NCBI GenBank assembly: GCA_024680555.1
Contig: JAILCC010000016.1
Span: 186,001-250,000, forward strand
Length of the DNA: 64,000 nucleotides
Source of the DNA: a bacterium
GTDB lineage: Bacteria > Cyanobacteriota > Vampirovibrionia > Gastranaerophilales > JAILCC01
Reading direction: 5' to 3'
How positions within the stretch are numbered: position 1 is the first letter of the stretch; each line of letters begins with the position of its first letter. Both the position numbers and the translations under genes were made by a program. Shown one piece after another: positions 1-29,930 of the stretch. The notes under the pieces were generated by a model. That model did not search any database and was not told the DNA's origin. It was given only the letters and a program-made list of their open reading frames with translations.

Positions 1-1661
1 ACACCAGAGTCAAACCATACATCCATAATGTCATTTTCTTTTTTAAAATGAGTTTTTCCGCACTTAGGACACTTAAATCCTTGCGGCAAAAGCTCTTGGG
101 CGGAATATTTTACCCATGCGTCGGAGCTTTCTTTTTCAAATATTTTTGCAACATTTTCAATTGTTTCATCAGTAACAATAGCTTCACCGCAATCTTCACA
201 ATAGAAAACAGGAATAGGAACGCCCCACGCACGTTGTCTTGAAATACACCAATCCGTACGACTTTCAACCATATTGCCTATTCTTGCTTCACCGCCTGCG
301 GGTATCCATTCTATATTTTTGATAGCTTCAAGAGCTCTTCCTCTAAATTTATCAACTTTTACAAACCATTGCGGAGTAGCTCTGTATATAACAGGATTTT
401 TACAACGCCAACAATGAGGATAGCTGTGCTGAATATCTTGCGCTTTTAATAGTGCCCCGCAGTTTTTTAATTTTTCTATAACAATATTATTTCCTTTGTA
501 ATAAGGAACACCTTCTAGGTCAGGGTCTTGAACTTCTGAAGTCCAAACACCTTTACTATCAAGAGGTGAGAACACTTCTATGCCATACTTACAACCAACT
601 TCATAGTCCTCAAGACCATGTCCGGGAGCGGTATGAACCGCACCTGTACCTGCATCAAGCGTAACGTGTTCACCCAATATTATTGGAGAAAACCTGTTTA
701 CAAGCGGATGCTTAGCTTTTAACAATTCCAAATCAGCACCCGTACAAGAGCCAATAACATTTATATCACTCTCTTGCCATTCAACATCAGCGAGGAAGCT
801 TCCCAAAAGCCCTTGCGCAATTACATACACTTCATTTCCATATTCAAAGAAAGTATATTCAAATCTCGGATGTAAACATATTGCCATATTGGAAGGAATT
901 GTCCAAGGTGTTGTTGTCCAAATGACGGCATATACATCTTTTCCTTTGGTATCAGCGAAATTGTTTATTTTAGCAACGCTTTCATCGTCAAACTTAAATC
1001 TTACATAGATAGATGTTGAAGTATGGTCTGCATATTCAACTTCCGCTTCCGCAAGAGCAGTCTCACAAGAAGCACACCAATATACAGGTTTCAAACCTTT
1101 TTCGATATATCCTTTTTTATACATATCGCCAAAAACTCTGACTTGTTCAGCTTCAAACTCAGGTTTGATAGTCAAATACGGATTTTCCCAATTGCCCCAA
1201 ACGCCAAGTCTTTTAAACTCATTTTCTTGACCTATCAAGCTGCTTTGAGCATATTCACGGCATTTTTGGCGAAGTTCCAACGGAGTTAGCGCATCTCTGC
1301 CGCCTTTGATATTTTTTACAACTTTGTTTTCAATAGGCAAGCCATGCCCGTCATACCCCGGAACAAAAGGAGCATAATAGCCTGACAAGGCTTTGTATTT
1401 TGTTAATATATCTTTTAGAATTTTGTTAAGTGCAGTACCAACGTGAATTTTTTCGGAACTCAAATACGGAGGCCCGTCATGAAGAATAAAAGAATTTGTT
1501 TTATCACGCTGCGCAAGATTTTTTTCATATATAGAATGTTCTTCCCAAAATTTTTGTATTTCAGGTTCTCTCTGAGTTGCATTTGCTCTCATGGGAAGGT
1601 CTGTCTGGGGCAAATTCAACGTGTTTTTATAATCATGTTTTTGTTGTTCTTCTACTGTCAT
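1..1661 (-). CDS. ileS: Isoleucyl-tRNA synthetase, N-terminal 553 residues (3' end outside window)
   Basis: Charges tRNA-Ile with isoleucine in the cytoplasm. The visible part begins MTVEEQQKHDYKNTLNLPQT, then carries the class I catalytic region (HDGPPYLSSEKIHVGTALNK, near residues 52-71) and an editing (CP1) domain with TTTPWTIPSN and GTGAVHTAPGHG. The DWCISRQRAWGVPIPV region and a Cys-x2-Cys zinc knuckle come next, just before the window edge. The usual HxGH signature reads HVGT here. The start at 1661 follows GCGGAG on the minus strand. It lies 73 bases downstream of uvrC on the same strand and is probably co-transcribed. There is no room for a T-box leader. Identification is firm; the remaining C-terminal part lies to the left of the window. 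Confidence 0.95.
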   Translation of the reverse strand, partial: MTVEEQQKHDYKNTLNLPQTDLPMRANATQREPEIQKFWEEHSIYEKNLAQRDKTNSFILHDGPPYLSSEKIHVGTALNKILKDILTKYKALSGYYAPFVPGYDGHGLPIENKVVKNIKGGRDALTPLELRQKCREYAQSSLIGQENEFKRLGVWGNWENPYLTIKPEFEAEQVRVFGDMYKKGYIEKGLKPVYWCASCETALAEAEVEYADHTSTSIYVRFKFDDESVAKINNFADTKGKDVYAVIWTTTPWTIPSNMAICLHPRFEYTFFEYGNEVYVIAQGLLGSFLADVEWQESDINVIGSCTGADLELLKAKHPLVNRFSPIILGEHVTLDAGTGAVHTAPGHGLEDYEVGCKYGIEVFSPLDSKGVWTSEVQDPDLEGVPYYKGNNIVIEKLKNCGALLKAQDIQHSYPHCWRCKNPVIYRATPQWFVKVDKFRGRALEAIKNIEWIPAGGEARIGNMVESRTDWCISRQRAWGVPIPVFYCEDCGEAIVTDETIENVAKIFEKESSDAWVKYSAQELLPQGFKCPKCGKTHFKKENDIMDVWFDSG

Positions 1662-27332: not shown

Positions 27333-27479
27333 TTTTGCGTGCGCAACACACCATGGGGGCACATTAAAAAAACATATTTCCTATTTTTGGTAGCCATTTT
27401 GCGTGCGCAGCACCCCATGGGGGGCATATTGAAAAAACATATTTTCTATTTTTGGTAGCCATTTTGCGTGCGCAGCACC
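27333..27479. repeat. Tandem 64-65 bp intergenic repeat, two full copies and part of a third
   Basis: Copies start at 27333, 27397 and 27462 with TTTTGCGTGCGCA, then a CCATGG-centred palindrome (CCCCATGGGG in copy 2), then AAAAAACATATTT and CTATTTTTGGTAGCCA. The third copy breaks off after GCAGCACC, just before the -10 box of the next gene, and supplies that gene's -35-like TTGCGT. The rest of the 27294-27517 gap has no gene. Confidence 0.85.
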
Positions 27480-27492
27480 TTTGTTATATAAT
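27464..27492 (+). promoter_or_regulatory. Promoter using the third repeat copy
   Basis: TTGCGT (27464-27469), 17-base spacer, TATAAT (27487-27492), 25 bases before the start codon. The -35 box lies inside the tandem repeat. Confidence 0.55.
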
Positions 27493-27517
27493 TTTATTAA
27501 CGCAAGGAGAGATTCTT

Positions 27518-28378
27518 ATGACAAAAAAGGAAGAAGCTGAAGCTAAGACAAGTCTTGAAAAGTTAGATGAGTTGACAAAAGACATACTAAATAACGGTAC
27601 TATGGGCGGCGATCCTAATTTTAGGCAAATTGTTTTTTCTGGACTTACACAAACAAAAAATAAAATTTTGCTGGAAAAAATGGAAGAAATTCTGTTCGTT
27701 CCCGAAGAAGAAGACCTTAAAAAAACGATTATTTTGGGAATATTTTTGCACAAGGAAATGTTTTCCCCTGTCATAAAATACGGCGAAAGCGTCATTGATA
27801 TGCCGTATATTGACGATAGTTATGACGAAAAAGAGTCATTTTTGTTTGTTTTGGACGGACTTGTTGAACTTGCGTATAAAAACAAATTGGATGAATTCGA
27901 AAGCGCAATTCCTTTATTGATGCAGTTATACAAAATCGCTTGCAGCGAAAAAAGCACCTCCGTTATGGCTGACAAGCTTTTGCAAAGATTTTTAAACTCT
28001 AAAATCGGTACGGTAAAAGAGCTGCAACAAGAATTCTCCGAAGTAATTAAAGATGAAACAAGCGAAATAAATGAAGTTGTCATTGCAATAGATATCCTTT
28101 CAAGAGGTCAGTATGCAGGCGTTTTAGAGTTGATAGAAGAAGTTTTAATGAAACTGAAAAACGAAACAACAAACCTTGCAGAACTTTTACCTCTATTAGA
28201 CATCTCAACACTTGCAATAAGCTATTTTTCCGACGCAAAATACCACAAAAAAGTCAAAAAACTCCTTGGACTGATAAAAGAAGTTAAGCTCTCAAGCATA
28301 GAGGGTATGACAGAAATAATTGAACGAATAAAACGCCGTGTCAAAAAGCTGCATGAGAATATAAATTCAAAGAATTGA
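27518..28378 (+). CDS. Helical protein of unknown function
   Basis: 286 residues, acidic, all-helical in character, not recognised. The start at 27518 follows AAGGAGAGATTCTT; a longer frame would run back into the tandem repeats. Paired-helix segments such as VVIAIDILSRGQYAGVLELI and LLPLLDISTLAISYF suggest a HEAT-like solenoid, though no clear repeat consensus is seen. No signal peptide or membrane helix. It starts 25 bases after a TATAAT box and is followed 7 bases later by the malic enzyme gene, so the two form an operon. Confidence 0.75.
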   Translation: MTKKEEAEAKTSLEKLDELTKDILNNGTMGGDPNFRQIVFSGLTQTKNKILLEKMEEILFVPEEEDLKKTIILGIFLHKEMFSPVIKYGESVIDMPYIDDSYDEKESFLFVLDGLVELAYKNKLDEFESAIPLLMQLYKIACSEKSTSVMADKLLQRFLNSKIGTVKELQQEFSEVIKDETSEINEVVIAIDILSRGQYAGVLELIEEVLMKLKNETTNLAELLPLLDISTLAISYFSDAKYHKKVKKLLGLIKEVKLSSIEGMTEIIERIKRRVKKLHENINSKN

Positions 28379-28385
28379 GGCAGAA

Positions 28386-29930
28386 ATGTATTTTGAAACA
28401 GAACTCAAAACCCCGCTAAATACACTTGATGAACTTTCTTTGATTTATACGCCCGGAGTAGGCTTTTCTTCAAAAGAAATTGCAAAAGACAAAACCCTCA
28501 CAAATTCTCTCACAAACAAAGCGAACTGTGTCGGAGTTATTTTTGATACGGATGAACCCCCAAAATATCTTGCGTTTGCCTATGCAGTATGCGCAATTAT
28601 AAAAAAGTCTCAAAACATCGATGCATACCCGCTTGTTTCAACAAAATATGATATAAATAAAATTGTTAAAAATCTTACTCCGACATTCGGCGCATTTTAT
28701 GTATTTTCAAATAATGAAGTCAAAAATGCAGATATCACGGAAAAACTTGATGATTTTGATTTTGATAAAATCGTAAAGAACGCAAAAATCTTAAAAGAAA
28801 AGTTAGAAAAAATTCCTAAAAATAAACCTGATTTTTCCGGAGAAGAATTCAGAAAAAAAGCATTAGAATTAAGGTTTTCACTAAACGGAGTTCTTAAAAC
28901 AAAAGAATGTGACTTATCGCTCGAAGAAATAAAAAAAACATTTACGAAAGAGAACCTTACAAAAATAGAAGTTGAGCGAAAAAATGTTGCGATTATTTCT
29001 GACGGAAGTGCCGTTTTGGGATTGGGGAACATAGGGGCTTATGCAGCTATGCCGGTTATGGAAGGAAAAGCCGCAATATTCAAAGCCCTTGGGAATGTGG
29101 ATGCCTTTCCGATATGTATAAAAACCCAAAATATTGATGAAATTATTGATATTTCAACGGCGATTTCTTATTCATTCGGTGGTGTAAATTTAGAAGATAT
29201 CAACGCACCAAGATGTTTTGAGATTGAGGAGAAACTTGCCCAAAGAACGGATATACCCATATTCCATGATGACCAGCACGGCACTGCCATAATAGTTTTG
29301 GCTGCACTTTTGGGCGCATTGAAACTCGCAGGCAAAAACATAAAGGACGTAAAAATAGTTATGTCGGGCGCAGGTGCGGCAGCGCAGGCAGTAGCAAAAT
29401 TGATATTGAAGGCAGGCGCAAAGAATCTCATAATGCGTGATGTAGAGGGTGTAATTTCAAAAAATTCCGCACATAAAGACAAATATTTGCGAAAAATGGC
29501 GGAAGTTACAAACCCGAATCTTGAAAGCGGAAGTCTCGCCGACATTCTAAAAGGTGCTGACGTACTTATCGGACTTTCTGCCGCAAACATTGTTTCAAAA
29601 GATATGATTAAATCAATGAATGAAAAAGCAATCGTTTTTGTTTTGGCAAACCCAACTCCCGAAATAATGCCAAACCTCGCCAAGGAAGCAGGCGCATTTA
29701 TTGTTGCGACAGGACGCTCCGACTTTGAAAACCAAATAAATAACTCTTTGGCTTTCCCCGGAATATTTAAAGGACTTTTAGCTAAAAACATTAAAAAAGT
29801 CACGGACGAAACAAAATATAATGCCGCTCTTGCCATAGCAAATTATGCCGCAAAAGAGCTTTCCGAACACAAAATTCTGCCTAAAGCGTTAGACAAAGGC
29901 ATTGTTGAAGAAATTGTAAAAACACTTTAA
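28386..29930 (+). CDS. Malic enzyme with an internal N-terminal duplication
   Basis: Oxidative decarboxylation of malate to pyruvate. 514 residues against about 390-420 for common bacterial forms. Catalytic marks are YTPGVG (Tyr21), ISDGSAVLGLGNIG, PVMEGKAAIFK (catalytic Lys), GGVNLEDINAPRCFEIE, FHDDQHGTAI and the NAD site VMSGAGAAAQAVAKL. The extra length lies between TNKAN (residue 43-47) and NVAIISDG (200). The insert, residues 48-110, resembles residues 200-271: IDAYPLVSTKYDINKIVKNL / TPTFG against VDAFPICIKTQNIDEIIDIS / YSFGG. This looks like a degenerate copy of the same subdomain. Residues 115-195 are a charged helical linker. The 3' end overlaps the convergent secreted gene by 4 bases. 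Confidence 0.88.
   Translation: MYFETELKTPLNTLDELSLIYTPGVGFSSKEIAKDKTLTNSLTNKANCVGVIFDTDEPPKYLAFAYAVCAIIKKSQNIDAYPLVSTKYDINKIVKNLTPTFGAFYVFSNNEVKNADITEKLDDFDFDKIVKNAKILKEKLEKIPKNKPDFSGEEFRKKALELRFSLNGVLKTKECDLSLEEIKKTFTKENLTKIEVERKNVAIISDGSAVLGLGNIGAYAAMPVMEGKAAIFKALGNVDAFPICIKTQNIDEIIDISTAISYSFGGVNLEDINAPRCFEIEEKLAQRTDIPIFHDDQHGTAIIVLAALLGALKLAGKNIKDVKIVMSGAGAAAQAVAKLILKAGAKNLIMRDVEGVISKNSAHKDKYLRKMAEVTNPNLESGSLADILKGADVLIGLSAANIVSKDMIKSMNEKAIVFVLANPTPEIMPNLAKEAGAFIVATGRSDFENQINNSLAFPGIFKGLLAKNIKKVTDETKYNAALAIANYAAKELSEHKILPKALDKGIVEEIVKTL

Follow-up and report, generated by a model that had tools for sequence, protein, structure and literature searches.

A tandem-fused and pruned malic enzyme of Gastranaerophilales with complementary loss of catalytic residues between its two copies

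The malic enzyme gene and its two copies

The window analysed here is a 64,000-nucleotide stretch of a Gastranaerophilales contig, and its forward strand carries an intact frame for a fused and pruned malic enzyme (ME) of 514 amino acids (28386..29930). A GAGG-like ribosome-binding site sits 5' of the ATG. The ORF directly upstream on the same strand (27452-28378) ends 7 bases before the ME start, and because just 7 bases separate the two genes they are probably co-transcribed; its product had no Pfam match at E 0.01. In the Pfam search, the ME protein matched PF00390 (91.8 bits, cut-off 23.1) followed by PF03949 (Malic_M; 84.1 bits, cut-off 23.5, E 1.3e-23), which is the domain order of small-type MEs, with both matches over the cut-off. 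It is the sole Malic_M match of the window's genome (87% complete), in which the PF03949 search found no second ME, and megablast against plasmids found no plasmid relatives of the gene.

Small-type MEs have one copy per chain; the window protein has two copies of the N-terminal domain, all parts lying on the forward strand. Copy 1 begins with an arm (residues 1-47, 28386..28526) that matches the arm of 2a9f and holds YTPGV at 21-25 and TNKAN at 43-47. By alignment, Tyr21 (codon 28446..28448) is the counterpart of Tyr52 of Bdellovibrio MaeB, as numbered in PMC7902834. The arm is followed by a degenerate substrate-domain body (residues 48-110, 28527..28715) that has Val68 at the position of the catalytic Lys and has lost the NLED motif, and by a remnant or linker (residues 111-159, 28716..28862), the copy 1 cofactor domain being deleted by comparison with relatives of 702 aa and 849-889 aa. 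Copy 2 opens with a vestigial N-terminal arm without YTPGV (residues 160-199, 28863..28982), which matches the arm region of small MEs in the predicted model, and continues with a substrate domain (residues 200-298, 28983..29279) and the NAD(P)-binding Malic_M domain with C-terminal helices (residues 299-514, 29280..29927, assigned from the PF03949 match and the model). The catalytic set is complete in the chain when Tyr21 of copy 1 is taken together with Lys228, Glu270, Asp271, Asp295 and Asp296 of copy 2.

In single MEs, about 5 residues lie between the positions of TNKAN and DGSAVLG. The latter motif is at 206 in the window protein, and therefore about 153-155 residues are extra, in agreement with the roughly 150 counted in an earlier sequence-only reading. 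That reading also held that part of this stretch resembles the genuine substrate segment, and a self-comparison confirmed it: residues 70-121 align with 230-285 at a local BLOSUM62 score of 56, which was reached in 2 of 1000 shuffles of residues 48-197 and in 0 of 1000 shuffles when residues 1-130 were compared with 160-310. A profile of the copy 1 body, built on 14 order members and excluding the YTPGV arm, matched the single-ME body with an hhalign probability of 99.4 (E 5e-21, 91 columns), and a control against the cofactor domain of the same enzymes gave a probability of 0.06. The copy 1 profile of the 14 members found 12 PDB sequences (E up to 0.01), every one an ME, with 5cee as the best match (5e-31, profile 4-139 on chain 41-190).

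Residues 1-159 alone had a sole Pfam match, to PF00390, which was weak (15.3 bits) and under the cut-off. An unrelated fold such as an ACT domain had been named as what would speak against a duplication; Pfam detected no ACT domain in the window protein, and profile comparison shows the stretch to be homologous to the ME substrate domain. In the AF2 model, moreover, strands and helices are predicted to follow one another in the copy 1 stretch as they do in copy 2. The first ME copy makes up residues 1-159, and what had been taken for a local insertion between the two motifs consists of the remainder of copy 1 (48-159) and the copy 2 arm (160-199). Plain insertion of an extra segment was ruled out because the series of relatives shows whole-gene fusion. 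The proposed internal duplication with loss of active-site residues is thus retained, but as a whole-gene fusion with later pruning rather than the insertion of a segment copy into an otherwise intact enzyme; the extra copy is degenerate as proposed, but not simply dead, since it bears the only YTPGV catalytic tyrosine of the chain.

Relatives, trees and selection

Matches at E up to 0.001 were detected in 14 of 40 near relatives and in 133 of the 289 genomes of the class. Many near-complete order genomes have no ME match (e.g., G002 and most f2 genomes among the near relatives), so the gene is patchily kept in the order. A search for other MEs of the same build, as the earlier reading had advised, recovered this architecture in a relative from the window's family (G003, 66% identity) and across the order. 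It is also found in records named Gastranaerophilales, one of which (L123) encodes a protein identical to that of order genome G183; the window's order is accordingly Gastranaerophilales, and the class presumably Vampirovibrionia (Melainabacteria). Three sister families (f9, f14 and f15) have two whole MEs head to tail in one frame of 849-889 aa (18 of 18 listed members fetched, 17 complete), and other families of the class have single MEs. By eye, several of these single MEs have an extra N-terminal domain that looks ACT-like.

The frames of the order form a graded series of 702, 673-675, 585-591, 537 (the window's family), 519, 514 (the window) and 483-490 aa, these being frame lengths of which some are longer than the protein. 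In the 702-aa frames (L009 and L011) the copy 1 cofactor domain is lost and its C-terminal helices are still there. The copy 2 arm shortens in parallel, from full length with a degraded motif in L009 and L011 to a shorter form in the window, and about 35 residues of it are gone in families f2 and f7. Together, the sequences of these relatives show that an ME was duplicated whole, fused in tandem and then stepwise pruned in Gastranaerophilales.

Tandem fused MEs were also detected outside the phylum, in Chloroflexota (L112, L147, L149, L164, L168 and L166) and in a Deltaproteobacteria record (L170). Their copy 1 has SNQHH or HHENH in place of the metal-site HDDQH, and this site appears dead as it does in the class forms. 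Copy 1 (23/23) and copy 2 (23/23) formed separate clades in the N-domain tree (support 0.993 and 0.964) and likewise in the full-length tree (1.0 and 0.972). Both trees hold only the 23 unpruned forms, from the class, from Thermomicrobiales and related Chloroflexota records, and from one Deltaproteobacteria record; the window form is tied to the unpruned tandem forms outside the tree, by the intermediates and the alignment. The separate clades across phyla would follow from one fusion, and since the family reaches Chloroflexota and one other lineage, this fusion is either ancient or has spread sideways between phyla.

Two adjacent, unfused ME genes with overlapping frames lie on the reverse strand of a locus from the same phylum (L183, G340:C334:5500-10500), the second of them with an asparagine motif that is degraded close to the gene end. 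They perhaps encode a two-gene heterodimer. The pair was rejected as the ancestor of the fusion; its genes are each other's sisters (0.956, full-length tree) and are for this reason read as a separate duplication.

Copy 1 had dN/dS values of 0.025-0.263 (Nei-Gojobori) in 18 of 19 pairs, and one pair was saturated; the value of 0.263 for the window against G003 comes with a dS of 1.67, which is near saturation. Low dN/dS was found in both halves, and in combination with the intact frame it rules out a pseudogene. As judged from these ratios, copy 1 is under purifying selection.

Catalytic residues kept and lost in each half

Small MEs are dimers whose active site is built from both protomers (Harding et al. 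2021, PMC7902834). In that study, Y52 of MaeB is supplied by the other monomer, and E149, D174 and K107 are the remaining catalytic residues. The 6zn4 match runs from 200-492 on 90-382 with no net gap, and by arithmetic, if the numbering is shifted by 11 throughout and no gaps cancel each other out, K107, E149 and D174 correspond in copy 2 to Lys228, Glu270 and Asp295. The residues of the MaeB site are therefore split between the two halves of the window protein, and what they retained adds up to exactly one site; as small MEs receive their Tyr from the partner subunit, the two halves are complementary.

All scored positions (Tyr, Lys, Glu, three Asp and two Asn) were intact in 80 of 80 single MEs. 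In copy 1, each residue of YTPGV is invariant in the order members (46/46), and the Tyr with TPG is present in 17/17 tandem forms of the class and 7/7 tandem copies from other phyla. The copy 1 cofactor domain is lost in the 46 order members examined, and the Asp equivalent to D174 of MaeB, which holds the Lys, is lost in 17/17 class tandem forms and in 7/7 from other phyla. The Lys itself is kept in 15/17 class tandem forms, in 7/7 from other phyla and in 7/46 order members (one of them in a poorly aligned stretch). Its position is Arg in all 34 f2 members (L026-L052, L085-L090 and L092), which looks like a fixed replacement rather than random decay.

In copy 2, the Lys, the Glu and the three Asp are kept in 17/17 class tandem forms, 6/6 from other phyla and 46/46 order members. 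All seven scored copy 2 catalytic positions are intact in every one of the 46, as is the cofactor domain. The copy 2 Tyr is present in 12/17 class tandem forms and 6/6 from other phyla, its TPG context being altered in the latter and in most of these unpruned forms, and in 1 of 46 order members (lost in 45).

The 46 order members comprise 34 from f2, three from f7, one from f6, two from the window's family and six from three other families, and since most of them (34) come from one family the 46 rows are not 46 independent events. They exclude the fused-looking G225, G195, G176 and G277, the weaker matches G254 and G288, and the fused order members L120, L123, L150 and L172. The class tandem rows are L053-L069, near-identical genomes were all counted, and the single MEs are a sample of the class, with three more (L098-L100) outside the 80. 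L166, which has no copy 2, enters the copy 1 counts alone. Left out of the counts were L013 (contig edge), L070 (copy 1 cut by the contig), L119, L158 and L177 (partial), L014, L020 and L025 (no ME motif found), and L015-L019, L021-L024 and L093-L097 (repeat views of counted genes). The single MEs are cut at the VAVVSDG stretch in alignments A3 and A4, and A4 omits the A3 rows L102, L128 and L136 (first codon GTG read as Met).

Predicted structure and a proposed composite active site

The window protein was predicted as one compact fold (AF2, 23-row alignment) with a mean pLDDT of 93.8 and a pTM of 0.92, and its best Foldseek match was 5cee. In the VIA comparison, the alignments of 17 small-type ME rows begin at model residues 151-158 and run to 514 (5cee: Z 43.0, rmsd 1.8, 360 aligned, model 155..514 on 3..378), and therefore copy 2 with its vestigial arm matches one subunit. 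The 31 large-type ME rows, which have their Tyr on the same chain, align from model residues 3-7 to 514 (human ME2 1pj4: Z 29.9, rmsd 2.7, 358 aligned, 6..514 on 96..530), so that the copy 1 arm would lie where their Tyr arm lies. The catalytic Tyr of human ME2 is Tyr112. The alignment ranges, which give end points only, suggest that the copy 1 Tyr arm is placed at the copy 2 active site. Copy 1 predicted alone gave a poor model (pLDDT 57.1, pTM 0.49, 12 rows), which would fit a half that needs its partner and may only reflect the thin alignment. In Foldseek this lone model had weak ME matches (best E 1.7e-3, rmsd 12; the first 7 rows were MEs), and the search was not used as support given the low model confidence.

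The observed duplication, fusion, complementary loss and constraint, with the compact predicted fold, are well accounted for by a pseudo-dimer in cis, i.e., a former homodimer contained in a single chain that has one composite active site, and we consider this reading likely. In an ordinary dimer, each site takes its tautomerisation tyrosine from the neighbouring subunit and all else from its own. Once a small-type ME gene had been duplicated in tandem and then fused, one of the two sites would have become dispensable. Copy 1 kept the Tyr arm and lost the cofactor domain, the Lys and the metal and proton-donor motifs, and copy 2 kept the Lys, the metal and proton-donor motifs and the cofactor domain and lost the Tyr arm. 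Tyr21 would complete the site formed by Lys228, Glu270, Asp271, Asp295, Asp296 and the copy 2 cofactor domain; this role is suggested by the way the arm is exchanged in solved ME structures and by the AF2 model. The sequence features point to an active malate-decarboxylating enzyme with one site per chain that may be able to work as a monomer. The cis pseudo-dimer leaves unexplained why 18 of the 23 unpruned tandem forms still have the copy 2 Tyr though the opposite site looks dead, and the copy 1 Lys positions that persist also count against it.

Alternatively, two fused chains could dimerise and exchange arms, with the copy 1 Tyr of each serving copy 2 of the other, so that the enzyme would still have two sites and depend on dimerisation. 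In the MaeB dimer and the small-ME fold the Tyr arm does pass between chains (PMC7902834), and our model covers a single chain and is compatible with such a swap. We nevertheless regard it as rather improbable, because the arm, copy 1 and copy 2 are predicted in one compact chain with the arm placed as in non-swapped MEs, and copy 1 can replace the partner in cis.

Slightly less probable again is that copy 1 serves chiefly in allostery or effector binding, having evolved from the dead active site. In favour of this are the regulatory use of degenerate second sites by other fused enzymes, the conservation of copy 1 and the cofactor-domain fold that copy 1 keeps in unpruned forms (L055, Malic_M 2.6e-17). 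Such a role leaves unexplained the retention of the catalytic Tyr motif by copy 1 and its loss from copy 2, and copy 1 of the window protein no longer has a cofactor domain or ligand motifs. The loss of several catalytic motifs from copy 1 and the copy 2 arm might also be taken as a sign of a decaying pseudoenzyme without ME activity, but this is very unlikely given the intact copy 2 positions throughout the 46 order members, the low dN/dS of both halves and the lack of any other ME match in the 87% complete genome. A chimera, an assembly error or an unrelated inserted domain, for which no support was found, can practically be discarded, being refuted by recurrence in G003, across the order and in the named Gastranaerophilales records; homology of the stretch to the ME domain also counts against them.

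The closest known enzymes are the small-type bacterial MEs (5cee from Phytoplasma, 1vl6/2hae from Thermotoga, 2a9f and the MaeB ME domain 6zn4), which share the fold and catalytic set at 37-49% identity over the aligned part. A swapped Tyr arm completes their active site (PMC7902834), and they are homodimers with two equal sites, whereas the window protein would hold both subunits in one chain as complementary halves. The unpruned tandem MEs (L053-L069, L112, L147, L149, L164, L168 and L170) are alike in fusion order and metal-site asymmetry but keep the copy 1 cofactor domain and mostly the copy 2 Tyr, both absent from the window form. Large-type MEs (eukaryotic and E. coli SfcA-like) also have the Tyr and Lys on one chain; they show 24-29% identity and no duplication, and their same-chain Tyr belongs to a single undivided copy. 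Assignment to the large type (~550 aa) was rejected, as its best match had E 3e-18 against 1.8e-98 for the small type. Hybrid MaeB (ME-phosphotransacetylase) likewise joins an ME domain to a second domain, but its added domain is an acetyl-CoA sensor that follows the ME (PMC7902834), whereas the window protein has another ME copy preceding the ME. The window protein was not assigned to this type either; it has no PTA match, PRK12861 scores 310.9 bits against a cut-off of 1178, and the chain ends with the ME fold.

Fused homodimer duplicates with shared sites, one of them lost, are known from the mammalian adenylyl cyclase C1/C2 pseudo-heterodimer and eukaryotic phosphofructokinase, which have unrelated folds and in which the second site became a regulator pocket. 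No fused, tandem or duplicated ME of such a kind was described in the literature searched, which mostly did not extend to subscription journals. We lean towards a broader reading in which an obligately cross-subunit site was captured in one chain, the halves were pruned oppositely with the intermediates still alive, the fusion is ancient or has spread, and the dead site and cofactor domain of the unpruned forms may be a regulatory nucleotide site. The relatives provide a stepwise natural record from two full fused copies to about 480 aa, and from a homodimer with shared sites to an apparent one-site monomer. The complementary loss is also evolutionary evidence that the swapped tyrosine of the crystal structures is what the enzyme needs. 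As a warning for annotation, such proteins are called as partial or ordinary malic enzymes, and residues 1-159 of the window protein fall under the Pfam cut-off yet should be essential.
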